DNA of 64,000 nucleotides. Source: Crossaster papposus (Eukaryota; Echinodermata; Asteroidea; Velatida; Solasteridae). Below the pieces are notes generated by a model. It was given only the letters and a program-made list of their open reading frames with translations, ran no database searches and was not told the DNA's origin. The position numbers and the translations under genes were made by a program. Positions 13,551 through 59,047 of this stretch are shown in pieces. The first letter of the stretch is position 1. Every line of letters starts with the position of its first letter. Location: NCBI GenBank assembly GCA_037893245.1, contig JBAIAA010000252.1, positions 526,501 through 590,500 of the forward strand. Direction: 5' to 3'.

Positions 13551-13987
13551 GTGGTCATCATCTACCTCCATGGATGAACTAAGCTCCAAATCATTGTGTA
13601 TTTTAGACACCTTGGAGAGTTGCAAGTATTGTTTTTCTTCATTTTTGGAAGTTGGTGTATTTATCATTGGAAGGGGGGGTCTTTTATCGGATACAGATTT
13701 TCTGTGAAACATAAAACAAGAAAAACGGACGAAATAGGAAACTCGTTAAAATTATGAATTATCAGGAGAAAAAATAGTTTATTTCAACAAAACAAGTTAA
13801 TAACTGCATGACAATGCCTGATAATTAAAAAAAACCTTTATGGAACTGTATTAAAAAATGCCCTTGTACTTTCTTATATGGCAGCAACATTTCCTTATTT
13901 GGCAAGAATTCTCCGCCTATTTTTCCTTATATGGAACAGACGTCATTTTGATTGACAGCCGAGTGAGGGAGCTATTGTCATAAATTC

Positions 13988-13999
13988 AAGATGGCGACT
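13988..13999 (+). promoter_or_regulatory. YY1-like motif near DLG5 5' UTR
   Basis: CAAGATGGCGAC is the best of the three matches and lies 374-385 bp before the CARD-exon ATG. In vertebrate promoters this motif often sits just downstream of the transcription start; that placement here is inference. Confidence 0.45.
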
Positions 14000-14216
14000 A
14001 TCAAAGGGTTGCAAAATAGTGGCACTCGTTGCAAATTATCGCTCTAGTCTACTCTAACTGGGCTTGATATCTTCTCATTCGTAATATTCGGGTAAAGTAT
14101 TAATTGTGTTATCAACTTTGATTATTTTAATCGAAACTAATTGGTTGGTTTGTCCAAAAACGAACTAGGAGTGTGATGTTTTGAGAGTTCACGAACGGAA
14201 CAGAATCTAAAAAAAA

Positions 14217-14282
14217 ATGGCCGACCGCACATCTGTTGTTGTTGAAAACAGATCGACCAAACGTGACAATAAACATGTCTGA
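14217..14282 (+). other. Upstream ORF in the DLG5 leader (21 codons)
   Basis: ATG in aaaATGGCC opens a 21-codon ORF ending TGA 14280-14282. It reads MADRTSVVVENRSTK and on. The Kozak context (A at -3, G at +4) is good, so if the leader is unspliced it could reduce translation of DLG5. Confidence 0.35.
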
Positions 14283-14310
14283 AAACGAACAAGATTTCAG
14301 GCTGAAGTGA
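14275..14310 (+). other. Second upstream ORF in the DLG5 leader (11 codons)
   Basis: ATGTCTGAAAACGAACAAG opens an 11-codon ORF (MSENEQDFRLK) ending TGA 14308-14310. It overlaps the first upstream ORF by 8 bases in another frame and ends 62 bases before the main ATG. Confidence 0.35.
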
Positions 14311-14372
14311 TGCCCAACTTTTCCCAACAAGGCAGCAGTCTGTAGATAAACTCTTCCACGCCAGCTGTAACC

Positions 14373-14682
14373 ATGGAGGAGAGACACGCCCAGATTCTTA
14401 AGTTCCATCGAGCAAAGTTTGTGCGGTCGGTTGAAGTCGAGAGACTTTACCCGATGTTGCATAACAACATGCAACCCAGCGTACTGAGCCAAGCAGACAT
14501 GGGGGATATTGAGCAGCAACCCACCCCGCAGGCAAAGGTTCAGAAGCTGCTGGACCTACTCCCAAACCGCGGAAGTCAAGCATTCCAGATTCTATGTCTT
14601 GCCTTGGAGACTACCTATCCACACCTGCTGACAGTCATGTTTCTAAGCAGTGATTCTATGTCCGTTTCTGCAGTGGGAAAAG
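14373..14682 (+). CDS. DLG5: DLG5 exon 1, CARD-like N-terminus
   Basis: ATG in a strong Kozak context (accATGG). It encodes MEERHAQILKFHRAKF, YPMLHNNMQPSVLSQADMGD and VQKLLDLLPNRGSQAFQILC, a helical pattern typical of a CARD, ending TYPHLLTVMF as in human DLG5 (TQPHLLPILY). The donor AAAAG|gttagt leaves one base (phase 1). Confidence 0.85.
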
Positions 14683-16559
14683 GTTAGTATGTATTTTGTA
14701 AACAAAAATTGTGATTATCATGTTTGTTGATTTGTTAATTCTGTTGCAAAAAACTTGCATTCAGCCCAGACGCCACTTTTTTCATCATGTATTATCCCAA
14801 TGGCAGTCAGTTATTGCAAAAATGTTTTAAAAGACATGGTTTTATGACTGAGAAACATTTCCACAAATTCCAGAAAAGCTGAGTCAACTCGTACCCCGAG
14901 TCAACTCGGACCCCAAATCAGCTCGTACCTCAGTCAAATCATACCCCAAGTTATAGGTTTTTGTCTTAAGAGGTTTGGTGGATATTGTGGGTCATATTTT
15001 ATAGTAAATATCGTTTAACAGACCTGTTCAAAGTTTACAATTATGGATGCCGAGAAAAAAGCAAAAGAAAACGGCGTTCGTTTATATGGGCAAAGGTATT
15101 GCTAATGCCTTGTGGTGGAAATGAACAAGAAAGGTATAAAACCAGAATGTAAACAAAATGTAAACAAAATGTAAATGTATATTGAAAAATTATAATCAAA
15201 CAAAATGTTGCAAAAGTCTGGACTAAGGACATTTGTGCTGTCAAACCATCCATTGTACCGGTAGGTTTTTCTTGAAAACATTGTTGGGAAAAACCAATGT
15301 TGGTTCTATGCTCTATTCCATTATTATTGTTTGATCACATTTGGCTCAACACGTACTGTTCGTTGAGTGCTTTATCTGCTCGCCAAAATCAAAACGTTAA
15401 CAATCACATCAAAGGCATAAACAATTGACTGCACCCACGCAAAGGCCTGTCGAGCAGACGTCATATATATTTACACATAGGCTCCAGACTAAAGCCGCGC
15501 CAACAGCCTAGTTTTATTATGTACGCTCGTACATAGTGAGGAGGCTATTATTTCCAAACACAAATGATTGAGTCACCCACACTCGACGGGATCAGATTAC
15601 CAAAAAATTGGCTGCTTTTAATGGTATAGTCTCTGCCAAGCTCTGTTCACCTACCGTAGATTTACATGGTACCAGTATCATACCGGTACATACACTGCAA
15701 ACATCATGATAAGCTGATTTCTTTATTTTTTTACTTTACTTTATTTCATTTCAAGGCATAACCAGTTGGTTTTCTTTTTCAAACTATTATAATATATTAT
15801 TTCCTAACTCAATCAGAAAATACAGTGTATATGGTACACTGTATGTCATTCTAAGTTTACAGCACATAAGACAAAACTGGCAAAAAAATTGTTATCAATC
15901 ATCGGTATGGCAGAGCCATCACTCAGCCAGCTTCTATTGTTACGACCCCCATTGTTATCCAACTAACCCAGTCTGGTGCAATGAAGGTCACCTGTTCCTT
16001 TCTCTATGTTCTTACCATAGAGACCGCCCTACTACTTGCCCAATATGGAGGAAATTATTTCATGTTGCTCTAATCTCCCATTCAGACCCCCCCCCCCCCC
16101 AACCCACAACTCCAATCCAGAATCATTTTTTTCAACCAGTTTACTTTCCCAACCCAATACACATACTGAATTAGTTTTGATACTTGCATGTAATTACTTT
16201 TTAAGAATTGTTGAAAGTAAAACATGGTTGTCTACAGCCTACAGGTTTCATGTGCAATTGGTGAAAGTACGGCAGTGTATAATGTAGCCATAAAGAAGTA
16301 TAAATTTATTTTCCTGGATCCTGTTGATACATTTTATATTCATTGAAATAGAACGGACATTGTCAATCATGGTTTTTACATTCTCTACATGAATTTAGAA
16401 ATAAGAAATTTATAAATAGTTTAGTAGTTCCTTCAGGGTAAATTTTAATGCAACTTTTATTTCTCTGCAATCCATTTGATCAAGCCCCATCCTGGACCAC
16501 GGTTTTATTTCGTCCTCGCCTCTTCACGCCAACCAACATCCTCGCTTATTTCATTCTTC

Positions 16560-16592
<33 letters not shown>

Positions 16593-19500
16593 ACTTTCTC
16601 TGATTACACTGGCCCAGATTTCAGCTCCTGATCCTCAAGACTAATAAATCCAACCCCATGTTTATTTATTATGCCAGCTCTGATTCTATGGTGTAGCTGT
16701 ATTGATGAAACTGCTTAAGAGTGGCCCTGGTATCTGATGACCAAATTAGGTCATTTGATGGTCTGTGGTGTACTGGGTTTCTTTGGTGCTGTAATTGCTC
16801 AAGTAATAAAAATAATTAGCAGAGTTCTACTTAAACCCTTTTAGGACATTTGGTATCTTTTCATTTTCAAATCATTTCTACAACAGAAAATATTTAAACA
16901 TATTAATTGGGATGGGGGGAGGGGGGGGGGGGGGGGGGGGGGGTTGAGGAGGATGCTTCAGAGGGGGGCCCCCTAGTGATTGATTGGCCCATCTGTAAAA
17001 CCCATCATAACGTTTTTCTACAAGTTCTTCTTCAAAAAATTAAGCTACCTTTGTACTCATAATCTGTGATGCCTACTTGACAATAAATGTCCCTAACCCT
17101 ACCAAATCCTTAAAAATCAATATGATTTTGCACACACCCTAGAGAGTTAGGGTTCCACTTGAACAGGTATATTTTTCCAGTCAGTATTATAATTTCCGGT
17201 AGTTAGTTAGTTAGCACCATAAATGTAGATATCACAAGATTATAGAAGTTACGTTGTAGATCGGAAGCTCGTTTGACTGTGCACAGAATTTAGTTGTGCA
17301 TGGGCATGCTACGCAGCACTATGGACTAAAGTTGATTTTTGTTTGGGTGGGGGTTGAAAGCTAATTGTTCACACTTCACTCATCCTGCTCGGAGTACCAC
17401 TGTGAACAATTAACAATGAATTTCCATTGTTAGTGCAACGCTTTTCTTTAGTTGCATGTTCATTCAAAAATGTAGTTTACGTGATGTGAATATAATTTGT
17501 TGCAACATCGCATCTATAGAAACTGTCGCTCTCCAGAATAAATTGACTATTCATTGATATTATCGTCTATGGTTAGACACTGTCCTCCAGAATAAATTAA
17601 ATATTCATTGATGTTATCGTCTACAGGTACATTGTACGTGTGTTTGTAGAACTGAATCCACACAACAATATTGCATTTGGCCTTGTGCTCTGCACGCACC
17701 TGTAGTAATTGTCAATATTATTATTTTGTTATACCAGTAAATTTCAGAGTTGTTTTATGTTTTGTTTATTTCTTTATTTGTCCATGACCTGGCTACATGT
17801 GTATTTTCGAATAGAGAAATGGCTGATTGACACATGTACCGGTACATGCACGTACAGCAAACATACGGTATTTTGTACACGTGTACCGGTGTATGAAGTG
17901 TATACCGCACTTTTTTATAATGTACACGTATTATGTGAACATGCAAAAATGCATTGATTCCCACAACTCCAGCTTTAAAACACACACAAACATTTAAAAT
18001 CTTTTTCTACCGCCAGAAACTGTTTAAAATTACCCTAAAATTATGTTAAATTAAGAGAAGTCTGCTTTTGGAATGAGGGAAAAAAACCCACCCTTGACTC
18101 TAAATTTGATCAAAAATAAAGAGGGGGCCGACATGTACCGGTACGGTACATACTGTACATGTAACACAGCCGCCGACTATGTACATGTACCTGTGCGTTT
18201 ATCGTACCAGTAGGTGCACGTGCGTACATGAATAATAAACAATATGTTTGTTGTCTGCATATATAGTGTCCTTGCTTGTCACGGCTCGTGACTCATCTAA
18301 ATTTAGTACTGATATTAGAATGACTGATGCTGAAGGCAACGGTACATGGTTGGTTGCGTTTACTTCAGGTATACATTTATACTGTATGGACTGAATGAGT
18401 GATCGCTATAAGCAAAACTGACATTTCTGTTAAGTTGTCACTCCATAATGTGCAGACCATTCAGGGTTACTGTTTATCTACCAATACATTGACAAACGAA
18501 TATTTATATTTCAGACATCTCAGTGAAACATTACAGTTTTTATGGCATTCACTGCGACAGCCTAACTATACAGCACAGTCAGCTGTTCATTATATCCACT
18601 CACTGGATCGTAAAAAAAAACCAACTTTTTTTTCTCCGTTTTAACTCGGTTACCATTCAGTGCTTTTTCATCAGCATGAAACCTCTGCATGCACTTCTGC
18701 CCGCACAATGGCCGTCTGTTGGCATGAATGAGGGCCACCTTTCAGATAAACCGCTATTGTCAGTCTCTCATTCTCTCCCAATCTGCCTTTGTCCAAAGTT
18801 CCTCAATGTGTTAATGGCCCCAGGGACTGTTGAACAGTGAAAAAAGTTGGCGGCTTGACCCCACTTTATAAAACCAGTACACTTCATGTAAATGGTTGTA
18901 ATTTAACCCTAAATGGTACTCTACCCATGCATCTAAAGTTCTATAACAGTCGCCAAAAACCTGTACATTTACACCAATCACGGAGCTATAATTTAGCTCC
19001 ATAAACCAACGTACATACACCCTGAGCTGTTCGCAATTGCAATGCGTGGTCACATTGTCCTCAATAGGCTAAGGTACATGTACCGGTACACAATCCCCCT
19101 CAATGGGGTTATTCAAATTTTGGTCAAACCGAATAACGATTATTTTATTTTCACCAGAAGTTCTCATTTAGCAATGGCCTCCCAACGACTGGATGTAGGT
19201 AGCAAGATTCAGTGACCACTGGGTTATTTAAAAAAAAACACTGGGGTTGTAATGTGAGGGAGAAATTAGGGAATTTCAGGGATTTTGTTTTCATGAAATA
19301 TTGGGTAACCTGTTTTTTTTTCTTTCCTGCTGACACCAACAGAGTCCCACTTGTCGTTATTTACCAGAACCAGAATGTTGTCAGTTACTACACAGGAATC
19401 CAACAGATTTCAGCAGGAACTGCCTAGCTGACTAACCGAGTTCAAACAATTCAAGCGTCTATATTTGTTTTCTTTATAGTAAAAAAGGCAATATCCTGTT

Positions 19501-22500
19501 TACTTAAAAATTTGTCACAGTCCAAATCAAAGTCCTTGGCATTATCATTTTTCATGTCAGTGACAATAAGCCATATTTTTTTTGCGGATGGGGGCGCTGT
19601 AACAATGTCACTCAAATTACACTGAAAAGAATTATTCTGGCGAATTGTGTAAAAGTGGCATCAGGCGTGTCGCAGACTCCGCTCATAATGTAGGGGTAAA
19701 TAAGGGAGTAAACTACAAAGTACGAATCAGTAACAGGTTCAGCTCTGCTGAACACGACTCATTCAAAGTAGTTTGTAAAGTCACGTTTTTGTTTCCAGGT
19801 TTGGCTTTAAGAGAAGATATCTTTAGTCTTTTGACTTGGCAGGCTCTGGCTCCATGTGTTTCTCTGTTTCCTTAAGGAACATCAAGACCTATAATTTAAA
19901 GTCTTGATGAAAATATTTCCCAACTACCGGTAGTTTGAAATATCCTCAGCCAAAGAGTAGGCTGTTTCTGAAGACAAACCCCTAGTTTCATAAACACTCC
20001 AAGTGATAACCTTAGACTGGTCAATATGATCAACATGTTTCACTAAACAGGAGAACCAGACAGTCAGTAAAGTAGTAGACGTATTGGAAGGCTCCATTGT
20101 GCGGTGCCACTGGCTGACATCACACCCGCTAAAACTCCACAGGAGAGCTTTGCTGTGGGCCCAAAGGGCGTCCTTTAGAGGAGCTCTGTGGAGTGGGCGT
20201 TTGTTGTCAAAATTACAGATCCCCTTTAGCGTGGGCGTGGGGGGGGTGTCTCTGAATCGCTGCCTAGGTTTTTTTTATGTTTAGGGACGAGCTGTAAAAC
20301 TGTTAAATTGAATACAGTAGAACAGTGAGCTTCCTCCCCCTTTTTTTTCAGCTCAAACTTGTTTTATAAAATGATCCCGGTAGTACATGTAACTCTACCC
20401 CTTTGTACCAGTAAGTTGAACATTTTAAAATGTGAAATGTGATGAGTACTTGTATGTGTACAGGTACCAATTTTTTTCGAATCAACAGGACATCTCTTTT
20501 AAATGGATTGAATTTTCACTAGTATTTAACAAGTGTATGGCTTTTTACTTGTACCTTTAAAATTCAAACTTGAGTTTCCAGTTGATTTTTAAGTTGAGTT
20601 GCCGTCCATTTTTTAATCTGTATGTTAAAGTTTCAGACTTGAAGAGAAGTTTCACTAATACCACTTTCTACCTACATGTAGTCCATACACAATCCAGGTC
20701 ATTTGTTAAAAGGCCTTTCTTTACGGGTATTGTCTGGTGCTACCAGGACTCCATGTTGATTCGGCTCCAGTTTCGTAGAGAAAAACTCCTGACCCGTATC
20801 AGCAGGAGTGCTTCAAATTATAGTCGGTTCTTGGCGTCATTCTGCAATATTCTGTCGCCTCCTTTTGTGATTATTGTTTTAAGTCAGAATCCCAAAGCAC
20901 CACTTTGAACTGTCTAGGTCACAGACCCTGTTTTTACCTTGTATTTGTCCAAGGCATCAAGCTGCGGTGTCTATTTCAAGTTAAATTAGCTCTCCCTGGG
21001 AGGTTTTTCTCTCTTAGATGTTATACAATGGTTGCAGGTGTCCGATTTCTAAAATGATCGCATTTTCCTCCAGTGATTAAAACCCCAAGTGCCCTCAATC
21101 CTGCAAAATACTGCATTTTGCAAAAAGGATTTTGGAGGATTTGGGATGGTTAGGGTAAATAAAATACTTTTATCGTCACATTGTGACCTTTAAGCGCGTG
21201 GTTTTTTTTGCAGGATTTTGTAGGATTTAAGAGCAATGATTTCACTATTGTCACACAGATTTCACAGCCTTTATTCTATCGCCCTTTTTTCTAATAAATA
21301 ATCTGCCGTGTTGAAGTCAAAGCAACTCTATCAGCTTCGAGGTAAAATTGATGAGATTTTGTCTTCAAAGGCCTGCCGCAAACTCACGAAATTGCCGCGT
21401 TTGATAATAGCAACAGCAACACTTTAACCCTAACAGTCCTGATTCCTCCAATTTTAATAGGAATTTGAACACATCGTAGGGAGCCAGGGTTAGAGCTGGC
21501 ATCTGCCACCCTGCTCCTAAGAGGAAATTGTCACACCTTGGGGAAAATTACAAACGCACTAAAAGTCCATTATTTTACCTCTTTGAATAGAAAAACCCCG
21601 AGCTGTTATTGAGAGCACTCTTGACATAATACTGTGCCTCTGTAAATGTGAACGTGTAGACATGATAGAGTTGTCTGGATGCGCTGGGGGTCGTTGGAGA
21701 AAGTGATATCTTAATGGACCATTTGCAGATAGTTGCTTGGGCTACTTCAGGGTACATGTATATGTGCCATTATTGGGTCCTTGTCCGCGTACAATTGAAC
21801 ACCAGCTGGGTCTGTGGAAAATATTCAAAATATTCCAAACAATGGAACAAGGACAGATATATGTTGAGGATGTACCGGTAGTCCGAACAATATTTGCATG
21901 AGTGCATTCTAGCATCACAGATCCTACAAATCAGTCAATTTTTTATTTTGTTTTATTGTACTGTATGTCGCACCATCTTGTTGGTGGCGTGTTATGGCTG
22001 AGCAGTTAAGAGCATGCAGACTCAAGCTCTGGTGTTTCAGATCAGCAAAGTGTGGGTTCAAGTCCCGGTGTTGACACGTGTGTCCTTAAGCAAGGCACTT
22101 AACCACTATTGCTTCGTCCTTAAGCAAGGCACTTAACCACTATTGCTTCGTCCTTCGGATGGGACGTACATGTAAAGTCGTACCGGTAGGTCCTGTGTGT
22201 TGTGTAATGTACGTAAAACAACCCAGTAACACTTATCAATAAAAGTAAAATCTAAATTTAACCCCTTCAAAATCCCTCGGGCGATTTTGGAGGATTTTGG
22301 AGAATTGTGGCGGAATCTGATTTTGCAGGATTGAGGATCGTTCCTAGCCAGAGGGCCGAGGGAGGTTAGGTTTAATAAAGATATCATGGTTATAATTAGC
22401 TCCGTCATGGACATTACATTTAACCAGTTCGCCCTGGGATTGTTTTAACATCACTGAGCCGAGGCGCGGGATTATTTTTAACGAAACTCAATCCGAGGCG

Positions 22501-25500
22501 GGTTAAGGATGATGATAGTACCGGGAAGCACACCCAAGCATTTCCGGCCTTGCTCGCTGCTGACAGACATTTCCGGCCTTGCTCGTGGCGTGTTTATGCG
22601 TCATCCGTTTTGAATCTGGGGAAAACTTTGCGTTTATATTCTTCTTCCAGCGCGAACTGGTTAACCCTAACTCTCTAGGGGGTGTGGAAAATCATAGAAT
22701 CACAGTACAAGATATAGTACTGTAATTACCTGTTAGTGAATATAGATGGTGTGCCATTGAAGCTTCTTGCAGGAATATGTGAGAACATCTGCTCTTCTAA
22801 TACAAGAAAAACCTGTGGCAAAATCCCATCCAACATTGCACCGTGACCCCTACCTTTCCTTAAAAAAAAAAATACTTCATCTTATTCTGACAGGGAATTG
22901 ATTTCCTGACAATTTCCCTCGAGCCTCGAAATTGCAATTTGCAGTAGGTTTTTCAAGACAAGCATCGAAAAAAAAAAAAAAAATTGCAGCTACTGTACAG
23001 ATAGCTCTTTGCATTAAGTTTCTTATAATTTTGACACGAGATAAGATTTCAAGAGAAAACTAAAAACAAATGCACTTTAAAAAGTATGTACATGTACATA
23101 CCTTAGGTTAAATTATCTTCCGTCTCCACAAGCAATTTCACTTTAACAAATTTCCGCAGCCCTGTTTTTTTTTTTTCTCGTTAAATAGAATGGGCAGCTG
23201 GGGAAATGCATAGAAAACCTTGCCGCAAGGTTTGTAGCAACTTTTCTTCATCTGCATAAAAGACGTGCTGCACGCACTGAGATAAATATTCCAACGAGTA
23301 CAGCATCGTTTCTTAACTCGCTTTCCCTGTCCGCTCATATTACCCAAAGCTCACTCGAGTTGACATCCTGGTCAACCTGCAGAATTTAATAAGAAGGCTA
23401 ATGAAAACACCCAGGTTTTTTGGGCAAACGTGCGGTGAATCATGAATTTATAGCTGTTGCTTATTATGCTACGCCGTTTTATAACCAGTTGTATAACCAG
23501 TGCAGTTTGAAGGTATAAATCTGCAAAATTAGACGACACTCAATCCTGACTAATTACTGTCACTGGCATCTAGAGTGATCTTTCAATCATCAATTCCTAG
23601 TATCTCTTGTGGGTTTGTTTTTTTCGCTCCGCCCCGAAACCAAAAACCAATCATGTTAGGGCTGCAGCACAGTTGAGGGTTTTTATAATCCGACTGGCTC
23701 GTATCTCCTCGGCGATTTAGGTTTCGTCGGCACAGCCTCTTCTTTCGATCGTCGCCGGATATATTAAAAGCCGATCTACTTGGATTCGCTCCAAATTGAG
23801 GGATTGATTTTCGCAACCACTGGTTTCTGTATTCTGTACGTATGCAGATTCAGCATCGGTTTTTGTGCACGTGTAGTGTACACCTTGGCTTTTCTCTGAA
23901 AAGTTGGCTTTTTATGAAATTGCATTTTTAAATTTGATCCCACTTGGAGTGCAGAACAAGTGTGCATACGTGTACAAGTATGATAAGTATGCAAGGAGGG
24001 TTTGTTCGTTTGTTTGTTTGCTACAAAACGACAATTTATTCTTGGTGCATGAAAAAGTCTTCATTTACATTAAGTATTCATGTTCTAGTGGAATTATTCA
24101 ACAGGGATAGATATGCTGTGTTCTCATTCTGTCTCTGTGCAGTCTTTGAATTTGTTCATCAGGAATCGGGACAGACGGTGTGCGGACAACGTGTTTATCG
24201 CATTCTGTGTTTTGATGCTTGTCTGCGCGATACTTCATGTGAGAGGAATTATGCACATGAAATTGCGCTTTCACGGTCTGTTTACATCGTCTTTACGGCT
24301 TATTGACGGGATTTATTCTTTCCTAATTTCAGCTATAAATGTGTATTTTTAGGTTAACAATGATTGGACGTTTGGGGAAAATACATGTTATGTACTACAT
24401 GTATGTATCATACTGAAATTTCGCTATTTCCTGTCAGATTTTCTTGTTTGTGGTGGAAGTAGATTTCTGTGTAGGTTTGCTTTCAAATGATCTGAAAACA
24501 AAAACAGCATGCGATTCAAGTTTCATGTAGTCTTTTGCACTGAGCAGTGTTTAAATTGCGTTGATGTCAAGATATGCACGCGTGCCTCTACACGCCGGCA
24601 TCAAAATGTAATTCTAACTAGAGTAAATACTTGTCCACCGCTTCGACAAAGCAGATGCCTTGCATTTCTACCGTGGCTCCACGATCGTTGTGTTTGCTTT
24701 GACATCTCAAGGGGGATGGATGCGTACCGGTCTGACCGGGGATTGCCCAACATCCGACTGTTGGCGTGGCGATGGGAACACTTGTTTGCTCGTTTCTTCC
24801 GTCTCTCCCTACGGTGACCGGGACTGGTGCGTTACCGCCGAGCGTAACCCCCCAACACCTAATTGGATAGGACAACCTAATAATCGGGCTAGCATATTGC
24901 AGGACAATGTACCGTGGATTCATCATCAGGTGGATTATGTGTTGGATAAAAGTACACAACATTAAAAATGGCATCACTATTTTTCTGAGTAGCGCCAGTG
25001 TGCTGGCTTGCGCATCACTTTTTCCTTCTTTCACGATGTTTGATCTCGTTTCAATTTTCCAGGAAACTTTTGTTATCAGATTCGTTCGGACTACAGTATG
25101 TGTTTGCCAACAGTACTCAACGTTAAAAACGACATCACCATTTCTCTCAGTAGAGCAAGTTTGCTGGTTTGCTTTCTCCTTCTTTCAAGATGTTTGATCT
25201 CTTGTCAAGTGTCCAGGAACACTTTTCCATCACTACATTTCCAGGTGGGATACATGTGATTACCAAATCCCAGTCATTGTTTAGTTTGGCCAGCGACATC
25301 TAAACAACATCTCATGGAGAGGAAATGAGTTTTTGTGTAAGTGCTTCCCTGAAACTGTATCTCTGGTTATATCTTATAGTCCGCATGAAAGGAATTTGTA
25401 TGTATTTGAGGATTACATGTAGATACCGCTACACATTGTGCGACTACTACAATTGCACTAAGAAACCTGATGTACCGATACTTGTGCGAAAACTGTCCAA

Positions 25501-28500: not shown

Positions 28501-31500
28501 CATTTAATCTACACTACCAGAGGCCATTGGTTTATCAACGTTTCCAGTGTGGATGGTTAATTTTCAACTAATTAATATTCATCGAAATACAACTTCAATC
28601 AGTGTTTTTGAATATTGACGATGTTTTCTCACAAACTGATGTACTTTACTGATTCGCCAGCAAATCCCCAGACGATGTTCCCGTTTAGTTGTTCACTGCC
28701 TGCTTTGAGTGTCTTCTTCAAAGGGCAGCTGCGTCGAGGGCACAACTCACCTCTGCCCAAAGTGCAGTGAATCCATAAAAAGGTCAATGAATTTTACTTC
28801 CTTGTGTGATTCTCTCTTACAAAACGGTAATTTGCACAGGAGGATTCAGAGAAGCAGGGTGGATCCAGTGGCTTTATCTACCTGCACAATACCGTAGTGC
28901 ACACTTTGGCAATCATTGATCCGTTGCAAACTCCTGAGAGAAAAGTCGTATATTCAGTAAACAGGTACAAAATCTCAGCCCCGTCTGGGATGCCTGGAGT
29001 CTGGAGTACAGGATCCTGCATTCATAGGAGTGTTAGAGTGTCAACCTGTCGGAACGACACGTCATGTTTAGGTTTTTCGTATTCTTTTTTGTTTTCATCT
29101 TTCATGTTTCTTCTGCATTGTGTACTGGTATCTCTCAGTACCGTACCTCCTTGAGAGATGATGCTAATCTGTTGCATTGAAATTACACGAACCTTGACAT
29201 CTTAGATGTGTGGTACCACAAGAAACCTGCGCCGAGACTGTCATTTTCAAGTTAATACACTTTTGTGGATTTTTTTCCCAACATTATTCACAAGTTTTCT
29301 CTATCTACATTTATTGCCTGAGTAGTTCTCACCCTTTACTCTTTCTTGTTGTTCTCTGTTTCAACAGAAATCTCCTGAACCATGCATGTTATTGCAATAT
29401 CCAGTGTATCCACAGAGAATAACAACATATCAATTTATCCAAATCATACCCCAGAAACCATGGCAACGGTAACACTCTAAGGAACACAATATTAATAATT
29501 GTATTCATTTCCCCCAGGCATCACTGTAATATAAGGGGGGAGTGGGCTGCATAGTAGGAGTTAGAGAGTACATGTATATCATGTATATCAATGCCTTTTT
29601 ATGAATACGCCTTATTTCTTAAGTTGAGATTGAAATTTAAATGAAAAGCAGGTACATAACAGTGTCCATGCAGACAATCAGCCCCATGGCCTTGTGCTAA
29701 ATCGCCAGTAGTGATTAATTAGTGTCTCACCATCCACTCATAATCACAACGCGACCCCATCCCTTGCGCAGGAAGTCTCCTAATAGTCAGTTTCTATCGA
29801 GCGGGCTGTCGGCAATGAACCACTTAAATCCAACGCGTCGGCTGCCGTGCGGAGAGATTGCCAGCTCAAGACGGAGAATCAAGGATGCATGGAAGTGCGT
29901 GGATTTGAAGAATGTCGTTGGATTAAAGAGATAATTCTTGGACAATGCTAACAATGATTGTGCAGGATGGACGTGTGCACAGTGGAAGCTGTGCCCAGAC
30001 CAAGGTGTCCAGTGATATGGCCGCCACGTGGAGTTTGGAGACTAGGTACAAAATGGCCGCCAAGTGGCCGAGTCTGTCGTTTCTCCAGCGACTTCCAAAA
30101 CGTCGGCGGAAAGGAAAAGGTGAGAATGTGTTTACTTTCATGTTTAATACTGGACATTCGGTATTGTCTGTAAATGTGGGTAGGCACTCACCGCGTTAGG
30201 GGGACAGGTTCTTTTGTTTGGAAAAGACAGACCGAGTAGTGGGGACATTTTCGAGTCCCCATAGCGCGTTGGGTGTTCAGTAAAGGTAGAACAAGGTAAA
30301 ATCGGGTTAGGGTATAATGAAAGAAAATGTAGAAGAGGACAAATTAGGGTGATGCTGAAAATTTTAGAATTTTAGAGTGTTCTGAGTTTGAGATTAGAGA
30401 GATTTCAGTTTATGCACAAACCCTATGGGTTGTCCCCATAACGCTATGTACCACACGAGTGCGTGTTCTTGAATGTACACCCATTATGTAGACAGTGTCA
30501 AGTACACACACATTTCTTTTAAAGTTTTGAAACCTACTTTTATTCACAGCAGTGTAAAAAAAAATGAATTCTTCCATCAGCCTTAGTTTTCATTAACTCT
30601 TGCTTTTCCAGCTCCATCCAAATCCATCCCCCATTTTTTGTGGATTTTGTGGTTTGTGGTGGGCCTATAGGCCTGGCTTGATTAAATTTGGATGAAGTAT
30701 GACAGACTTGGGCCAGGCGGGCCTGAAGCACTGCTTGGGGAAACTGATTGATTTTGTCCACCAAGAAGTACACTACCGGTAGTGTTGTCATAAAATTGAT
30801 GTGTACTACATAATCCATCAAAATCATCCAGCACTTCATTGGTAGATTACCGGCATATCATGTATAAGAAGCAGAGTGAGTGATGGATTTTGATGGAAAC
30901 GGTTCTTTCCTAAAGTAACTATAGATAAACATGTAGGGTTAAGAGTTAAGACTCTTCAAAGCATTTGTATCTTGATCATAGAAAGGTTTAATTTGTTGGC
31001 GTTTCGCCAATATTACAATTACCAGTACAATCTTCCTGATCTTAACTTACGTAAACTGTCGTGAATATTTGATCGCGTCTTGTAAGATCTTGACCTCAAG
31101 ATAGTCAGTGAGTGGCGTCGTTCATCGTCACCCTCTGTCTGCATTTTTATTGTGATGTGCCTCTCTGCATGAACAAGAAACAAGAGCCAAGGAAAACACT
31201 CCATGTCCATTGAAAACCTTGTTCACCAGGACGCATCCTTGTTTTTAGAAGCACGCAGCTGGGGTAAAGAAAGACACGTCAGGCGTGTCTTAAAAAGTAC
31301 TTGTAGTTTGCTTAGTCACCATCCTGTCCAATACTGCCCTACATGTTAAAGTGTTGCGTTGCGTTGGGTTGACCAGGCTAAACCGATTAACCAGTTTGCG
31401 ACAGGATTATTTGATTGGGTCCAGGTGCGGGATTGTTTTCACGAACCTCAATCCTAGACGGGTTCAGGCCAGCATCTGTGGATAGCACACCATAATATTT

Positions 31501-34500
31501 CTAGCCTTGCTCATTGTAAGCTCATTGTAAGCTGGTTGCTGATAGACATGTACCGGTATTTCCGGCCTTGCTCGTAACATGTTTACAGACTGCGTGTTTA
31601 TCTGTCACCCGTTTTAAATTCCCCCGGGAAAAACTTACATACACATCCTTCAATGTGAACCATTGGTGAACTGGCTGAATAAATGTAACAGTACATGCAT
31701 GTACATGTACATACATACCCTGTCTGATTATTCTTGTATATGAACCACTGCCTGTGTCCTTGTATACTGATATACATGTATCATGAGTACCTGTCAGATT
31801 GGGTAAGGACTAAATGATTGATAACTGCCATTATTATTTAATGAAAGTGCAGTGTATCTGTTTTTGGTTTTATAAGCTGAGAATTAATTACTCTGATTTC
31901 AATCTAGAAATAAAGTTTCACGCCGGAACGTGCGAGTATTGTGGATAAAGTTGAGATAAACAAAATCAATTTATTCCTAGTGGTTCACTATAATGCCTAT
32001 TGAAATCCAAGCTGCCGGTAGCGTGAACGTACTTAATTAGCATTATGAATGCAAAGCCATCACATTTCCTTTTCAGAAACGTTGTTTTTTCATCAAGAAA
32101 ATTGCAGATGCTTTTTTACAAAAGTACATGTAAATCTACTGAGATGAAATCTTCACAGGTTTTAGTGAACCTGCCTCAACTTTATGGTATTTTCATTCCT
32201 GGAATCGGTAAACATACATTTTTTTCCCCCAAATTGTAAATCACTCATAATTTTACTGCAGTGGTAATAAGAAATTATCAGTTAACAACGTTCCTTCGTT
32301 GTCTCAACAACAACAGTTCTTGGCTTTTCATCTACACGTCATAATTGAAAGAAAGACAAAAAATACCTTTCTCCAGGCACTTGATTTGCCGACGAGCCGA
32401 CGAGCGAGAGGTTTTTACACGCGTTTCATTGTCAGTTATTGGCTCGTGTTGGTCATTATTGTAGTTACACACTAATTGGTTCTCTACAAATATCCAAATT
32501 CCTGTTCTCTCTTCCACTAAACCAATTTTGTGCTTGCATGACAGGTAATTATTTTAGACACAGGAAAAAGGCTTAAATACACTCGTACTATTCACAAAAT
32601 TCTTGGAGCAGAAATTTTACTTAATTTAACTTCATGTTGGTGAACACATTTTTTATTGCTAGAAAAACACCAGAATCAATTGGAAAAAAAATTAAAAAAT
32701 CTTGTTAACATGATTGGGAATACACAAAATTGCATGTGGGGAAAACGCACGTTAAAACTTTGATTCAGAATCACAGGTTTTGTAGATACATGCAAAAGCA
32801 TACACATCTTTAGACTAACAAATTTGGAATTTTTGCAATTCTAGTCATTTGTGATTTAGTAACTTAAACTTGGTACTTTGTGTACATGTACTGTATGCAT
32901 AAAAAAACATGTCAATATCACTTCGTAGTGTAAGCCATAATGCATGACATAAAGATTTTCTGAAATGTTTGATCACCCACAACTGGTACGGTAGTGTGGC
33001 CATGCACGACTGGTGGTGCGACCATGCACAACTGGTGGTGCGACCATGCGCTGGTGTAACCCCTGTCTGCGAACTCTTACGATTTATAATCGCAAGTCAA
33101 AAGTTTTGAACATGACCATTAGCCTTGCTGTGACTGATTTTGCTCTGGTGATCACCTACGACTTTGCGCTCTTTTTACGGTTTTCCCGCGATTCCAACAT
33201 TTGTCGGTCGCAGCTACTGTAGGTTGTAACCTTGACTGGGCTTTAACCCCCCCCCCTATTACATTTGTTCTTGAGGTTCTGACTAATATAACTGCAAGCC
33301 ATCCAAATTTGTCTCCCAGCGTTAAATGTTTGCATTGTTTTCCTAGCTCATCGCAAGAGCCACTATGTACACACTGCAAAAATCCATTCCCTTTTGGAAA
33401 ATTTAATCCACTAATGGCAAAAACACTGAGGCTACATGCAAAGTAAATATCATGGGAGGATGCCTTTGAAGAGTCTCATGAATTAATGAAGGATGATATT
33501 AATATTAATATTGTAAAGGCTTTTGTTAAGGGCTTGCAGTAAAATCCACTCTGGGGAATTTCGTACAAGTAAGGAAGTTACATTTTTTGGTTTTTTTTAT
33601 CTCTAAGGAGCTTTGACTTAGGACTATACTGAAAATTAAAGATCGCTGCAGATTTTTTTATTTTTTAGAAAAGGATAAAATATGGCCGCTTTATCGCTTT
33701 GATCTTTTCCCGATTGAATTACAAATTATGTTCATGTACGCTAGCGGATGAGGCCTTTTGGTTGATATCTTCAGAAAGCAAAATATGGATATCTTGACAA
33801 TTTTTTTTCAGTCAAGCCTATTTTTCTAAACATTTTGTTTATTTGCCAAGCCATTGCAAAAAATAGATTTTACTTTCTTCCCCAAAACTTCAAAATCCAT
33901 CTGGATGTTTTGACAAATTGTGTTAAAAAATAACTTTAAAAAACATTTAAAATTATAAATTATTTGTCTCTTATTTTTCTCTAGGTTCGTCACAGTCCAC
34001 TGTTTCTTCCTACACCTCAGAATCCGACGTGGAAGATCCAAGGAGTAAGTAGTGATATTCATTGTGAACTCTGCAGCGAAATCCAACAAAATCCAACAAA
34101 ATCCAACAGAATAATAACATTTTTATAGAATTTGAAAGGGTCTGTTGGGTTTTGTGGGTTGTTGAATTACACGCTTAAATCTAACAAATTTAGCTCTTGC
34201 ATGTTGCGAACAGTACAAATGAATTTGTGTTTCTTAAACTTTACTGACATTTTTGTTAATTCTTAAATCGTGTTATGTTTTTGTGTAAATATTTCGCCTT
34301 AATTTCTGTGTTCAATCTGTCTCCATTCGGTATATGTGAGGCGTTCTGGCAAAATGAGACGGAACTGGGCACAGGGCATAGTGGAGAAAATTGCAAAATA
34401 ATGAATAATGGGTGTTTTTTTTAATTTGCAGATTTATTGATATTTGTAATCTTTAGTATGCCTACTAAGAAATAACAGGGAATTAGTGGAATAAAGTGTA

Positions 34501-40500: not shown

Positions 40501-43500
40501 ATTTTGCTTGTAATTTGTAGGCGGTTGAGTTTCCTGTTGCATTGCATTTGAATTACTGCTGTTTAATTTTGTTGTTGTTACGTGACTAGTGTTTATTACA
40601 TGTACAGTGTACCGGTACATGTACATGTACATCACGACAACATTGCAGAGAGTAGGCCAATAACTGAGGGTTTACAAATGACATTAATTATCTGAATAAC
40701 AACAAAATAAATATTAATGCAAGAAAATTCAGAATTAAACTTTAGACCGGTGTACAGCAAATAGAAACATTTGTCTCAAAATATTGTACAGTAAATAAAC
40801 TACTACTACTTACCAGAATACATCAGACTTGATTAACCCTAAACCATGTAACCCTAACTCAACCCATTGAAATCCAACTGCCTGGTTTGTTGAAATCTGT
40901 TAGGACCAAACTGAGGCAAAACTGATTGTTCTTTACATTGAGTTTGGCATACCACCAGAATCAGAGTACAACACTCTGGTTTCTAGTAAAATGCACTAGG
41001 GGTTTACGGTTAGTTAATACTTCACAATTCTTTGCCCATTCAATTCAGTATTCTCCCAGTGTAATGCACTTTATATAAAAGAAACTGTCGTTTAACCGTT
41101 TTTAACAAAAAGTAGCCAAATTTGAATAGTACCGGTACATGTAGGTCATGACTTGTTATTTACACCACTGTACATGTACGTTCAATTCATATTGACTTTC
41201 CAACATTTTTTCCTGCAAATGCACCTTTCTTAGCAAACACCTTGGTATTGTCTTGAGAACCCAGGACAATGAGGCCAACAGTAACCCAACCCGCAATGAC
41301 TCTTCCTATTGTATCTCCCCATGGATGCACCTCTCTGTTACTTGATCCAATGGTCCTGCTCCTCCGAGGAACGAAAAAGAAAAAAACAAGATCAAGGATG
41401 GAGTTGTGGGGGGGGGGGGGGGGGGGGGGTGGGGGGCTGAGTACTCCTCAAGGAACGCGATACATGCCTGTACCTGATTGACTGGGGAATCAAGGTGATT
41501 GGTGAATATGAGTCACCGCGATGGGTACCGGGCAAATAAAAATCGCACCTTTGTTCATCAAGGCTTTTGTTTCACCGGTGCTCGATAATCTCGCTTCTAG
41601 GGTTTCATTCTTATGGTAATAATGTTTCATGGAGAGGTGGACTGGGCTTGGCCCATTAAGGCCAAGAATTGATTTTTTGCGCGCTGTGTTGGACGGCTGT
41701 GGTCAGTTTGCTACGACTGACCGAAATGTTGGTGTTAAATTGTGTGCATCTGTTTTTAGGAGAAGGCCTGCCACCTGCAAGTCCCAGCTGCAATTTGGAC
41801 AGTAAAACATCAAACTGATTAATTTTTGTAATTATAACCCATGCTTTTAGTCTGATGCTCTGGTGTTTAAAATATATATTTCCTTTTGTGGAACGATTTT
41901 AAATTGGGCTTACTATTTTGCTTAAAGTGTAATAATTATTGAATGCAGAAGTGTAATTGTTTGTGTAGAGGAATTGCTTTAAAATAAAATACACTGAGTT
42001 TTTTCTTGTGACCTTCTAATTCTAAATTGACAATTAATTCTTTTCATTTCAAGACCAAGAAAATCGAAACAAAGTTTGTTTAGTTTAATTTTGTACTGTG
42101 AGGACGATAATGCTGGCAATGATAAAATGTTCATTCTGAACAGACAGGTTTTGCGTGGCATCCTAATAAATTGATTGCTTCTAAGAATCCTGTTATTTTC
42201 ATATTTTGCAAACCACAATATTTTAATGGAAGTGTTGCACATGTATACAGGTACACATGACATATTGGAGTAGAATTTCAAGTGCAGGTATCATTAATAT
42301 CATTCTGAACCTAAGACGGTGTAATAATGTGCTAGCCAGACCGGATGCAAACAATGAAAACAAAACACAATTCATTTATTATTCAAGGACTTGGCTGGGT
42401 ACATTGAGTCGGTTAATTAAACTTCAGAATGAAACAGCCCATAATTAAAATATGCCTCAACCTCGTCACTAATGAAAAAACAAACACACACGCGAGTTTA
42501 ACCACAGTAGATACCGGTATATTCATTCCTGCAGTTTTTTCAATTTTTCATGGAGGATGGAGCACATTTACAAACATGGAAATAAACTGTGAATATTATA
42601 TCTACAGTTATAGCATTACAGGTTTGCCCCAATCTATCTACTGTACATGTACTTGTAGGTCTGGAATCTGATTCCATTCGTGCGTCATAATGATAATCAA
42701 TGGCCCACACGGGACCAGAGGGAGGCCTGGACCAGTGCACTTCTTATTCCTACAGCTCAGTGATTAACATGGTTATAAACGATGTGTGCTGGCGTAAGGT
42801 ACGCATTGCCGTTGGTAGTACAGCTAGTCTCTGCTCAAGTGGTTTCGTCTTCAGTCTGTGAGTGAGTGTACCGGTACACCGAGGCAATAACTCTGTTGAT
42901 GAGGTCGGTTGCTTAAGAGCTGGTGTTCTCTCTTCTCCTTGTCACTCGAGAGGATGCAGCCTTAGGATGCGGGTTGTCGTGGCGACGATACAGCCATCCC
43001 GCGCTCCGTCGGTGCATCTTTAAACATCTGTGTGTCACTCGGGAGCAGTTGGCTTGGTCTGGAGGTTGTTTTTGTGGGAAGGAAACGTTGGCCAACAGTG
43101 GATTTGGACTTTTTGTTTGTTTGCCGAGGTTTTTCTGGCCGTTATATTTTATTCTCTTGGTGGGCCAGCTTTTGAAGAGAGTCTTCTAGATGTCTTCATG
43201 TTTGTACTTGGACCTGATGGGTTTGTACTCGTAGAAATATGGCAGAATAGTTTAGTCTTGTTGGTATTTCTATGACTACATGATGCCTACCTACATGTAC
43301 TTATGATGCCTATATTCTTGTGCTAATTTATAATCTGCTTCACAAGTAAACCCTAATCACCCCAACCCTGCAAAAACCAATTGCATGTCTTGTTGTAATT
43401 TGTTTACTTTTTTTAAATTTTGTTTTCATAATTTTTTTTTTACATTTAAATAGTACATTGAAAGAATATGCGACACTCTTCCATATAATTTTTTTACGTA

Positions 43501-46500
43501 CGAGCACAAGTAAAACCCGACATAAATTTGCATTGCATGGACTTTTTCTTTATTTGATTGTTTTTCATAATGACCTTGTTTGTATCTTGTGTTTATTGCA
43601 AGAAAGGGCTCTCAGAATCTCCAACTTTATTATCATGTTATGTTTTTACGGAATCATCAAGATCTTTTGCATATATGCAAATGATGTTGATCATGAGGTT
43701 TATGATTAGATGTACATGTACTGGTACAAATTGCATCCAAAGTTTTGATGTTTATTGAATCAGAATTAATATTCCACAAAATCTTTTAACTTTTAGACAT
43801 CTTCATGTACCACGTATGTACAGTAATTTGTTGTTTTTAATGATTAACTAAACAATTTATAACTAGCAGGCAATATATTGCATCGGTGGGGCTGAGATTA
43901 AAAAAAATCTTTCCAGACATAGAAATTCAATAATAATGTACTATGATCCGCCACCGTATTGCATACATGTCAAAACATGTAACAGAATACGAGACAAACA
44001 CACATGGATGACTATAAGGCAGGTGCAGGATAGGAAACATAATCTTCACGTTCGAGTTACGTACTGGTATAGTATGTGCCGGAAGGCATTAAGTAGTATA
44101 GATGGTACATGTTTACGCACACTGTGAACGAACCCGGTACATGTACAGTTGGTCTAATTCAGTCAAAATGGAGAAGACACAAGGCTTTTTCAACTCTGGT
44201 CCGTTTTATTTATTGCTACTTTATGTAGAACTGCTATTGATTCTTTATTAGAAACAAAAAAAGGTTTTTACTGTCATTTTGGTGCTGGACTTGAAAAAAA
44301 TGCAATGTCCACTACAATTTTGGTGGTATAATGCTTATCAGCAGATTGACAAATTGCAGTAATATACCCGAAAAAAATATCAAGATATAATAAGATGGTA
44401 GGTTAGAAAATATTGTGCAACTTTGTTTCTCTCCGCTCGTTAGTCTTAATTGCTACTTTGTTCACTGTAGTTTAATAGCACCAATAACTTGATTTTTTTA
44501 AAGAGGATTTTGGAAAAAGTCTGTGTGTTAAGTAGATTGTAACAAAAAACGTACGCCCTTTTTGTACAATGTACGTGTGTTGGAAATGATAGTCTTTATC
44601 ACCGTGTGTATGCCGTAATTTCACCAACATCTAATTAACTACTCTATTGAGTTAAACTACGGTACTGTTATACCGGTACTACCTACCGTACAGCTCAATA
44701 TTATTGTTTACAGAAGTGTTGAAAATATAGCAAGCACTGTGCTTAAAGGTAGTATACACCATTTGCAGATATCGAAAATATTTACTACCGAATTATAAAG
44801 AAATATCTTACTTATTTGAAAGTAAATAATGATTGTAGGCATCTAGCAAAATGATTGCGCTAGATATCCTGTAATTATTGTGAAAAATTGAATTTTATAA
44901 AGAAAAAATCGCTCTCGCGATAATTACAGGATATCTAGCGCAATCATTTTGCTAGATGCCTAGGATGATTATTTACTTTCAAATGAGTAAGATATTTCTT
45001 AATAATTGGGTAGTACCTTTTTTTGATATCTGCAAATGGTTTATTCTACCTTTAACCATTGTTCAAGCAGTACGGTAATTATCCAATGTAACCATCCACT
45101 CCCCTTACAATCCTACTGGTAGACGTTAATTGTTAGTGATCCGTAACTTGAGATGAATTCATCCTGCATTCATGTCTCACCATGGCCTCAGGGTACTCTA
45201 TTCTGGCTTGTCTAAGCCCAGCTTTACAGCGGTCCAGAGGGTGCAGTCCTAATGAAGGTTTACTCAATGTGGTATTTGATAGGGTCATCATAAACAAAGG
45301 AAGGCGTTTAGGGTCCTGTTTGGCCCAAACTGTTCTCCCTAAGTCATTCATTCCAGAACTGTGGTGTCTTAAGTTTTTTCTATTTTCCCTCCTCCACGTC
45401 TGAGTAACACTAATATTAATAACTAGCTCCCTCGTTTATTGTAGCCTACATGTACCCTCCCCCTTGCCCTGTCCTCCCCTTGCCCTGTCCTCCCCTTGCC
45501 CTGTCCTCCCCCTACCCCTTGCCCTGTCCTCCCCCTACCCCTTGCCCTGTCCTCCCCTACCCCTTGCCCTGTCCTCCCCCTACCCTGTCCTCCCCCTACC
45601 CTTAGCCCTGTCCTCCCCCTACCCCTAGCCATGTCCTCCCCCTTACCCTGTTTTTTAATGTTTTAATGAGTATTGATTGGTCTTTTTTGGTTTATTCCAC
45701 CACAATCGAGACAGGCGCTGATTTACTGAGCAGCATGCAGCTGGGACCAAGTTATTACAATTTTCAGGCTGCTTTTTCATGATACAATTTCAAACTTTAC
45801 CGGGGATGGACAAAAAAAATGGAGTGAATTAGGAGATGGGGGAAAGGGGGATGTATGGATTTGACGTGTATGCAGGCAGGTGATGAGTATTGTGCTGGAA
45901 GGGGCATAGAGATAGACGAGGGGTGATTATTGGGTTAGATGCAGCGATAATGGGAGGCTGAGAAAACTAGGGTGAATGATGAACGCAACGGGAGAATGAA
46001 ATGCTGACAGAGCAGCAGGAGGTCCTGGGGTCTAAGAAAAGATGAAGAGATAGAAGGTGGGAGATTTATCAAGCTGCTTTGATTCGTGAAAGAGAACTGG
46101 ACTGGGGGATATTTTCAGTTTTGTAAATGGAAGTGGTCTGATGTAAGGATCTAGATGTGAGCTGCTAGATGTTTGGGGGGTTGTCTTTTATGTAGTAAGA
46201 TAGAGATGGGATAAGTGGGATAGCCATTGAGATAGAAGAGAAGTACTTGGGGATGTTTTCAGTTTTGTATAGGAAGCGATCTGTTGTGTTTTTTCTTTTG
46301 GAGATTGGAAAAAAGAGAACCACTCAGTTTGTAAAAGAATTGGACTGGGGGATGTTTTCATTTTGTAAAAAACAGCTGCTGTACAAAATTAATGGGTTTT
46401 GCCTTTTAGTGAGGTTATACCGTAAGTTAGAATAGGACTAGTGGCTGCATTTCAGCGGTTTTTAGAAAGGAAAACTAATGAAAGCTTGCCAAAGTCTTAC

Positions 46501-52500: not shown

Positions 52501-55500
52501 TTTCGATTTTATCGGACAGAGTCATCATGAGAACTTCTCTAAACAGTTGCTGTCAAGGTATCTGCAAATTCGTCATTGTTACTTCGGAATGGTTTGAACT
52601 ATACCGGTATCTCAGGCTTGATTATTGAGGAGGATTTATTAGAGACATCATGGCAAGCCAGTTGGCGACGAGGAAGCAAAGAGAAAAGCCTTCCAAGGCA
52701 CTAACACTTGCCAATCCGTGGGCTGTATGCCTCGCTAATGGTAAAGGTAGAGCTATGAAGAAGGACAGTAAGTTGTCTGCCAAGGATAACGACGGAGCAG
52801 TGAGGCTTTCAAACGTCTCACCGCTGAGGACTTGGTGCGGCAAGATGGGCCTTGTTAAACTCTTCCTTCGAAAAGCTCAGCCATTTTATTACCTTGAACT
52901 TGCCGGGGACTTAGTCAGCCTGTCAGGTAGGTTAAAATAGGGAAATCGTCTTGATGATTGTCTTTGTTCGTCTGTCTGCCGTGGTCGAGTTCTTGTCCTC
53001 GTTATGTCTGTCTAAATTCTGTCTTGAAATTTTGGTAATTATTGAAGTATTTTGTTTCTTGACAGGTCCACGGTTACTGCTTCCACCTGGCCAACAAAAT
53101 GGCCACAGCAGCGTAGGCAATCGAAGCTTGGAGTTATTCAAGCAGGAGCGTGTCATGAGGCAGTCTGGGGAAAACGTTGGAAGGAACTCTCCGTTACCTC
53201 TGACAAACAGGATGGAGAACGACCCAGTCGTAAAAACCAATGGAAATGGGTCCGGGGCCGAGGATCGATGCCACCATCACAGTCACCGGAATTATGAACA
53301 GTTGCGGAGTGAATGCAAGAGAGCTATCGTGGAGTTGGAGAACCTAAAGCGGCAGCATTCGGAGGTGATGGAGAAGTTTGATCATGCTAATCGGGAGGCT
53401 GAGTACTGTCGCAACAAGTATCGCTCTTCTGCCGAAACTGTGGAACAACTTCGCATGGAACTGCAAGCCAAGATGTGCGAATGCGCCGAGCTGAATGCAG
53501 ACTGGGACCAGGCTAAGCAGGAGATCATTGACCTGAGACAGACTCACGAGAACGACTTGAAAGAGCTGTCGGAACTCAGGATGCAGAACCGAGAAGTCAT
53601 GAACCAGCACGGGTCCTCTGAGGTCCTGAATAAGATGTACGACACAGCCTGGGACAAGTACGAAGGATTGAAAAGAGAGTACGAAGCTCTGAAGCAGAGA
53701 AACGCTGACTTGACATCCAGGAATAGTATCTCCAACTTTAATATTGAGAGGATGGAGCAGGACAACAAGAGACTGAAGGGACAGTTAGAGACGGCTTATG
53801 CTGAAAGGGATCGGTTGGTTTCTGAGCGTAATGCGCAGAAGCAGCAATGCACGGCAGTAATACGCAAATATGAAAATATCAAACGAGAAATGGACGAGTC
53901 ATTGCAGAGCACAAAGCTTGCCAATCAAAAGTACGAGAAAGCGCAGCGGGAACTAAACCACGTTAAACACGTCAAACACGAGATGGATAAGAAGATTGAG
54001 CGCGTGACCGAGGAACGCAACGCTGCCGTGCGTGAGTACACGTTAGTCATGAGCGAACGTGACGACGTTCATAAAGAGATGGAGAAGCTTCAAGAGGAAG
54101 CTCAGACGGAAAGCTCATGCAGGAAGAACATCGAGGAGAAATACCGGAATGTCTTGGCCATCAACGATGCACTTAAAGGCAAGATGTACGTGATGAGTAA
54201 GGAGCGCGATCACGCTTTGAGGGAGTACAATGAACTGAGTGATCGCTATCGCAACATCATCAGCAATACAGCGCTAGCTCAAAAAGAACGTGACAAGGCA
54301 CTGTTTGAGTTTGAGAAGTTTAAGGATGAGAGGGATGTTGCACGACAGGAAAGGACTGAGGCTTTGGATCAGCGGGACAAACTTCTTCAAGAATGCTACA
54401 ATGCCGTCCAGCAGCAGAAGTCCATTAGTTACGACTACGACTTAGCTTTCAAAGAAGCCGAGGTCCTCCGACGAAACCTAAACACTGCCGAGAAGGAACT
54501 CAAAGAGGTGCAGTCGGAGACAGACGATGCCAAACGGCAGCGAGACCGGGCGTTCCAGGAGCGCGTCAAGATCATGATGGAGCGGGAGAGCATCCGGACA
54601 TTGTGTGATAAACTCAGACGGGAACGTGATCGGGCTGTCAGTGATTTTGCCGAGGCCCTGAGGAATCTGGACGATGTCAAGCGACAGCGGAATGATGCCG
54701 GGAAGCAGCTTAAAGAAATGAAGTAAGTACAGTACATGTATACAAATAAAGTATCATCTTTTGTCCAATATGTAGTAACGTTTTAGTGAAACATGTCTAA
54801 GAAATATTGTTAAGAGCCTGGAAAAGTATCGGCATTTTGTGGTGTAAGAAATCAGAAGAAGTCCTTAAAATCCTAAGCTGTGTTTTCCTTTAAATTTTTA
54901 GACCAAATTTAAGAAGTGTAGCAGTTTTTAGATTTACAATCTTCATGTGCATGTGTGTGTATGTAATATAGTGCTATCCTTATAAACACAAAAAGTGGAG
55001 TTGAAAAATTAAAATTTTGCCAATTTTGTCAGTCCCGTTCATGTTGGAAAAAGTTGGTAGATGAGAATTCTAAAAATACAAAATTACACAATGAACGTTG
55101 TCTCCAACTCTCCATTGCATAAGAATGAGCAATATCATTTGTTTTCACAGATTTTCGCATTAATCGGTCACGATGGCAACTTGTGCATTTGGTTTCAGAA
55201 CGAAATAGAGAGCCAGATGTTGTGGTGTGCTAAATGAGCCGTTTAGCTGGCAAAATTTGATGAATGGATGACTAGGTTCCATTTAACTGTGACAGCTACT
55301 GTACATGTACCAAGGGCACATCTGTAGAAAAAAAAAATAGTTGGCCGTACACGACTGGTACATGTTGTATTTATTTTTTTTTGTTTTATTTTTTACTAAG
55401 GTAGCCCCATCAGTTATCAAGGAACTGAACTGTTCTCCCCAAGAGCCCTACGTTAAAAAACACTAAAACAGTACATATCATAGGAAATTAAAAACTAATT

Positions 55501-58500: not shown

Positions 58501-59011
58501 TCACCCTCAACATCATGCGTGTCTCGTCTCCGTCATCCTCCTCTGGTCTGCCGTCAAACGCCAGCCCAACGGTAGAATCAATCAAAAGCCACGAGACGTT
58601 ATCCTCCAAGTCCAGCCTGACGCCCCTCATGTCCCCCTGTGACGACTCGGAAAAGACAAAGAGCGGCAGGAATATTAGCATACAGACGGAATTGACACTG
58701 TCGCAAGCACTGCCACCCCCAATCTCATCCCCGCTGATGCAACGCCATCTAGATACAAACCACTTTGAGGACAAGGTGATTCAGAATTTCCACTTTCAGG
58801 GTGGAGACTATCCTTCCTCTGTCTCCAGAGGTCAGGGGTCGCCCGACTGGCAGATGAACCAGAAGGAGCCAGTTCAGTACTCGAGCTCGAGGCCGCACGC
58901 TAACAGTGAGCCTGCTCGCAGACAGGATGGAATGATGGCTTGGGACGGTAAGCATCAACCACAGTGCAATCTTGAGGATGCTTGGGCATATCCTTCACAG
59001 GGACAGTTACC

Positions 59012-59047
<36 letters not shown>

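Follow-up and report, generated by a model that had tools for sequence, protein, structure and literature searches.

The DLG5 gene of Crossaster papposus (Asteroidea) opens with a firm CARD-encoding first exon and, on the reading that we tentatively prefer, has at least one alternative first coding exon, at 52650–52926. The gene was analyzed in a window of 64,000 nt (contig JBAIAA010000252.1, positions 526,501–590,500, forward strand), and coordinates below count from the first base of this stretch. It can be regarded as settled that the gene is an animal DLG5. Its 5′ part occupies the + strand from 14.4 kb onward up to the window end, and its 3′ end lies outside the window. The features are as follows.

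14373..14682, + strand, first coding exon with CARD, 103 codons plus one base (G), recognized by Pfam, PDB, structure model, and donor
29945..30119, + strand, candidate for an alternative first exon or for a leader exon, 58 codons and one further base, open frame with donor
33985..34044, + strand, DLG5 exon 2, 60 nt, acceptor score 8.47, phase 1 in and out
52650..52926, + strand, candidate for an alternative first coding exon, 92 codons and one further base, able to join only exon 3
52927..53065, + strand, putative intron of 139 nt, GT at 52927 and AG at 53064–53065
53066..54722, + strand, DLG5 exon 3, open for 551 codons, coiled-coil region common to all forms
57008..57146, + strand, DLG5 exon 4, from a mechanical search, the sole solution closing the phase gap between 54722 and 57355
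57355..63978, + strand, 12 further DLG5 exons, a single stop-free chain with four PDZ domains

The identity of the gene, proposed in an earlier note on this DNA, is borne out by its domain content. Pfam places PDZ domains (PF00595) in two stretches of each of two pieces of the 12-exon chain, and exon 3 gives weak matches, to coiled-coil families only. Among the best 60 of 75 PDB matches, the third PDZ taken alone is closest to human DLG5 (1uit, E 4.4e-22), and for the PDZ3-to-SH3 part the best matches, which cover longer stretches, are PSD-95 (E 1.3e-26) and ZO-1 (E 2.8e-23). With a long coiled coil ahead of PDZ domains that most resemble those of DLG5, the gene falls into the DLG5 class. Pfam detects no SH3 domain at E ≤ 0.01 after PDZ4 in the part of the gene inside the window, past the end of which the gene continues; the alignment with ZO-1 PDZ-SH3-GUK chains does extend beyond PDZ4. 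No relatives of exon 3 in the viral collection were confirmed by tblastn, as expected for an animal gene.

The splice-site matrices used throughout are built on vertebrate-like consensus frequencies; as a check, the same scores gave one missing exon only (57008–57146) for the gap between exon 3 and 57355. Twelve of the 13 introns after exon 3 measure 119–569 nt, and the remaining one measures 2285 nt. The 569-base intron after 63215 carries a 22-base tandem array of ∼15 diverged copies (63233–63557). Elsewhere in the window are a 320-base near-perfect palindrome (44740–45058, 85% self-complement), which resembles a folded-back mobile element, and a 200-base inverted pair (29–223 and 22467–22666, 88% identical) that represents a dispersed repeat. 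No tRNA (ARAGORN, bacterial code) and no Rfam RNA at gathering score were found within the window.

The exon at 14373–14682 is certainly the real first coding exon of DLG5. The CARD that it was said to encode is recovered both as a sequence profile (PF00619, E 2.1e-13, 50.5 bits against a cut-off of 23.9) and as a bundle of six helices in a single-sequence model with a mean pLDDT of 73.9; the best PDB relative is the RAIDD CARD (E 1.5e-4). An in-frame stop lies upstream at 14343, the donor reads AAG|GTTAGT, and no stop interrupts the path from this exon through exon 2, exon 3, and 13 more exons. By the likely CARD start, at 13985–14052, is found CAAGATGGCGAC, which opens a short upstream ORF and which we take to resemble a TISU/YY1 element. 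Directly upstream of DLG5, on the same strand, is a LIM-domain gene (5900–9200, two LIM matches). At 8971–9496 the end of a LIM-domain exon, with the donor and the intron start, is present in four near-identical 131-base tandem copies, reflecting either a recent duplication or an assembly artifact.

The earlier note further proposed that this exon and two others, at 29945–30119 and 52650–52926, are three phase-matched candidate starts of the same gene. All three open reading frames exist as described, with 103, 58, and 92 codons, each ending one base (G) into a codon and each joining exon 3 in frame. Exon 2 enters and leaves in phase 1 and can therefore be skipped in frame; it keeps the frame from the CARD exon into exon 3, and both exons 2 and 3 are preceded by AG acceptors. 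Five N-terminal versions are possible, all open from their ATG via exon 3 and 13 exons to 63978. The proposal that every start could splice to either exon 2 or exon 3 is sustained for the CARD and 29945 exons but not for the third; 52650–52926 lies 3′ of exon 2, so ordinary cis-splicing to 33985 is impossible, and it can join exon 3 only. As an alternative first exon should be, each of the two candidates is an ATG-initiated frame that ends at an in-phase donor, the assignment being ambiguous for 29945. Their donors score 6.60 and 6.57, above all 15 DLG5 donors scored on the vertebrate-like matrices (1.68–5.92), and we therefore consider both to be good consensus sites, predicted rather than proven. 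Also as claimed, no domain is recognized in the candidate peptides, neither giving a Pfam match at E 1. No second copy of either candidate, as a repeat or transposon origin might leave, is present within the window.

How readily such exons arise by chance was estimated for the interval from the CARD exon to exon 3, counting as an object any first ATG after a stop that opens a frame of at least 50 codons ending at a donor scoring at least 6. On the + strand the only two phase-1 objects are the 52650 and 29945 candidates, and the sole other object is a second frame of the donor at 30119; the opposite strand of this interval has no such object in any phase. The null consisted of 300 dinucleotide-preserving shuffles in 1-kb blocks. 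At thresholds of at least 58 codons and a donor of at least 6, one or more objects appeared in 16 of the 300 shuffles and two in none; at 92 codons and a donor of 6.5 or better, a single shuffle of 300 gave an object. When the 2 kb directly upstream of exon 3 were shuffled, an object like 52650, by these same stricter thresholds, arose in 1 of 2000 shuffles. With a loose cut-off (50 codons or more, donor of 3 or better), four objects are seen against a mean of 0.88, a count reached by 1 of 300 shuffles. Because the cut-offs were chosen after the objects had been seen, these figures flatter the candidates. Two phase-matched open exons with donors of this quality are above chance, by cut-offs set post hoc.

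This excess bears on the possibility, which we take seriously, that the CARD start is the sole real one and that the other two are frames left open by chance next to good GT sites within 38 kb of intronic sequence, any CARD-less forms not originating here. That the objects exceed the shuffles speaks against it, as does the rarity with which the 52650 frame stays open when its own bases are shuffled (7 of 1000 shuffles; 13 of 1000 for the CARD exon and 71 of 1000 for 29945). The loose cut-off, which also yields two phase-1 objects on the opposite strand, speaks for it, and so does the donor at 30119, which is open in two frames.

Codon usage divides the two candidates. A codon model was trained on 13 DLG5 segments and tested on 116 intronic ORFs of at least 45 codons from both strands. 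By total codon score the CARD exon and 29945 exceed all 116 intronic ORFs, which for 29945 is a further point against a CARD-only origin of DLG5 proteins, and 52650 is reached by 1 of the 116. When synonymous choice alone is considered, the share of intronic ORFs reaching each exon is 0.017 for the CARD exon, 0.000 for 29945, and 0.060 (∼7 of 116) for 52650. GC content raises the codon scores of all three. Measured against shuffles of their own bases, z is 1.76 for the CARD exon, 2.29 for 29945, and 0.72 (p 0.25) for 52650; when the 13 training segments are scored by leave-one-out, their z values span 0.58–2.54. For 52650, another forward frame, with seven stops, outscores the open one (0.14 versus 0.06). 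From these z values and frame comparisons, codon usage mildly supports 29945 and is neutral for 52650, neither supporting nor excluding it. Both this neutrality and the top-scoring intronic ORF, at 42700, which reaches a z of 2.04 with no other sign of coding, fit the possibility of chance frames.

The anatomy of 52650–52926 makes it the better of the two candidates, and as a second coding start, one that would lead into exon 3 only, we rate it fair. It has, as the earlier note described, an upstream in-frame stop (52626), a good ATG (here A at −3, G at +4), and 92 codons; its donor reads CAG|GTAGGT, and the putative intron of 139 nt that separates it from exon 3 fits the sizes of DLG5 introns. 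The 300 nt upstream of 52650 contain five ATGs, a point against this start. The exon was also considered as a cassette exon, a reading rejected because none of the five AG acceptors scoring above −1 between 52250 and 52659 gives a length divisible by three. The encoded peptide has no relatives confirmed by tblastn in the viral and prokaryote collections, where none are expected, and its three PDB rows (E 0.031–1.9) are led by an ankyrin protein of designed sequence, for which no single stretch passes alone. A single-sequence model has no confident fold, and its mean pLDDT of 49.5 makes it too poor for a fold search. The 52.6-kb stretch, or the one at 29.9 kb, could alternatively be a 5′ untranslated first exon, with the CARD-less protein starting at ATG 53212 in exon 3. 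That ATG is in frame in a context of A at −3 and G at +4, while the 29801–30200 interval is CpG-rich for the window; a 92-codon frame behind a good upstream ATG would normally be translated first, however, and we consider the untranslated alternative improbable. Both the anatomy and the statistics make a CARD-less start right before exon 3 plausible.

The segment at 29945–30119 is the weaker candidate and could perhaps be a leader exon. An in-frame stop lies upstream at 29924, and the donor reads AAG|GTGAGA. The context of the ATG at 29945 (A at −3, C at +4) is bettered by that of a rival ATG at 29967 (A at −3, G at +4); from the latter, the donor at 30119 is also open in phase 0 for 51 codons, out of frame with DLG5. 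The codon score over 29945–30118 is 0.26 for the phase-1 frame versus −0.05 for the rival frame. The peptide has no PDB match at E 1. Within the candidate, ATGGCCGCC (30017–30074) occurs twice, 36 bases apart, and is absent from the rest of the window on both strands. We give very little weight to a further alternative, in which the segment would be an internal exon of CARD transcripts (29772–30119) that adds stops and lowers output rather than a start. An acceptor at 29772 scores 5.96, and the resulting 348-nt exon would have four in-frame stops if the CARD exon were spliced to it in phase 1, yet the CpG content of the segment points to a promoter as readily.

Promoter signals were sought as CpG observed/expected ratios in 400-base windows. 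The ratio is 1.19 at 13901–14300 and 0.97 at 29801–30200, the window centered on 30000 falling at the 93rd percentile of 637; around 52.5 kb it is 0.61, at the 54th percentile of the same 637. Windows with no known gene start score as high (1.21 at 44601–45000, 1.13 at 24001–24400), and matches to TATA-like and CCAAT elements are too frequent in the window for placing promoters. The CpG pattern therefore provides mild promoter evidence for the first two starts and none for the third. The earlier idea of separate promoters spread over 38 kb thus retains a mild CpG signal at ∼14 and ∼30 kb and lacks any rise at 52.5 kb, an absence that again favors the CARD start being the only real one. The most far-reaching reading is that three promoters over 38 kb would drive one scaffold with the CARD and two that lack it, the latter with N-terminal peptides of their own, such that promoter choice would separate CARD signaling from polarity scaffolding in this animal; we regard it as doubtful.

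Returning to the preferred reading, in which 52650–52926 is a second first exon, the observed anatomy, phases, open joins, and excess over chance suggest the following scheme. A transcript would start from a putative promoter within a few hundred bases 5′ of 52650, translation would begin at ATG 52650, and the message would be spliced across the 139-nt intron to exon 3. The CARD and exon-2 segment (124 residues) would thereby be swapped for a 93-residue peptide, with the coiled coil and PDZ chain unchanged. If used, the 29.9-kb exon could add a third start, or else serve as a leader, for the most part untranslated, that joins exon 2. From what is generally known of CARDs, the CARD-less scaffold would probably be barred from CARD–CARD assembly. 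CARDs are best known from innate immune assemblies, and DLG5 couples one to a polarity scaffold. Should promoter choice set the presence of the CARD, the role of this domain in DLG5 could be tested by the removal of one exon or promoter.

Both kinds of variation proposed here have precedents. For human DLG5, a CARD-encoding exon has been identified and its expression in colon confirmed (Friedrichs 2008, as told in PMC3775315), and p-dlg and the large-type lp-dlg have been named, with a larger variant seen on blots (PMC3335148). A 2007 survey describes DUF622 or CARD domains for Dlg5 of mouse and human and for none of the other species that it covered (PMC1978500), and a 2010 survey places a sponge CARD protein as sister to the group of DLG5, CARMA, and ZO (PMC2859873). 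Drosophila Dlg5 is described with an N-terminal coiled coil, four PDZ domains, SH3, and GUK, a list that does not include a CARD (PMC4876392), which speaks for the 52650 reading. N-terminal switching is likewise described for fly dlg, which yields DLGA and DLGS97, and for DLG2 isoforms, in both cases through an N-terminal interaction domain (PMC5004195, PMC7962242). Among the literature matches listed, from a collection with few subscription papers, none visibly reports alternative first exons for DLG5 of any invertebrate.

Compared with these systems, the window gene is like human DLG5 in being predicted with and without the CARD exon; its two candidate peptides have no match that could be compared. 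Drosophila Dlg5 has the architecture predicted for the 52650 form, whereas the gene in the window encodes a CARD form too. The switching of DLG1–4 is alike at the N terminus, but the optional domain there is L27, not CARD, and the MAGUK class is different. DLG5 forms that have or lack the CARD are a known kind, and so is the switching of N termini in the family. The second start, if real, is a new instance of known MAGUK N-terminal switching, and the novelty would lie in the peptides and start sites of this animal. If the reading is true, the split between CARD and CARD-less forms extends beyond human DLG5.
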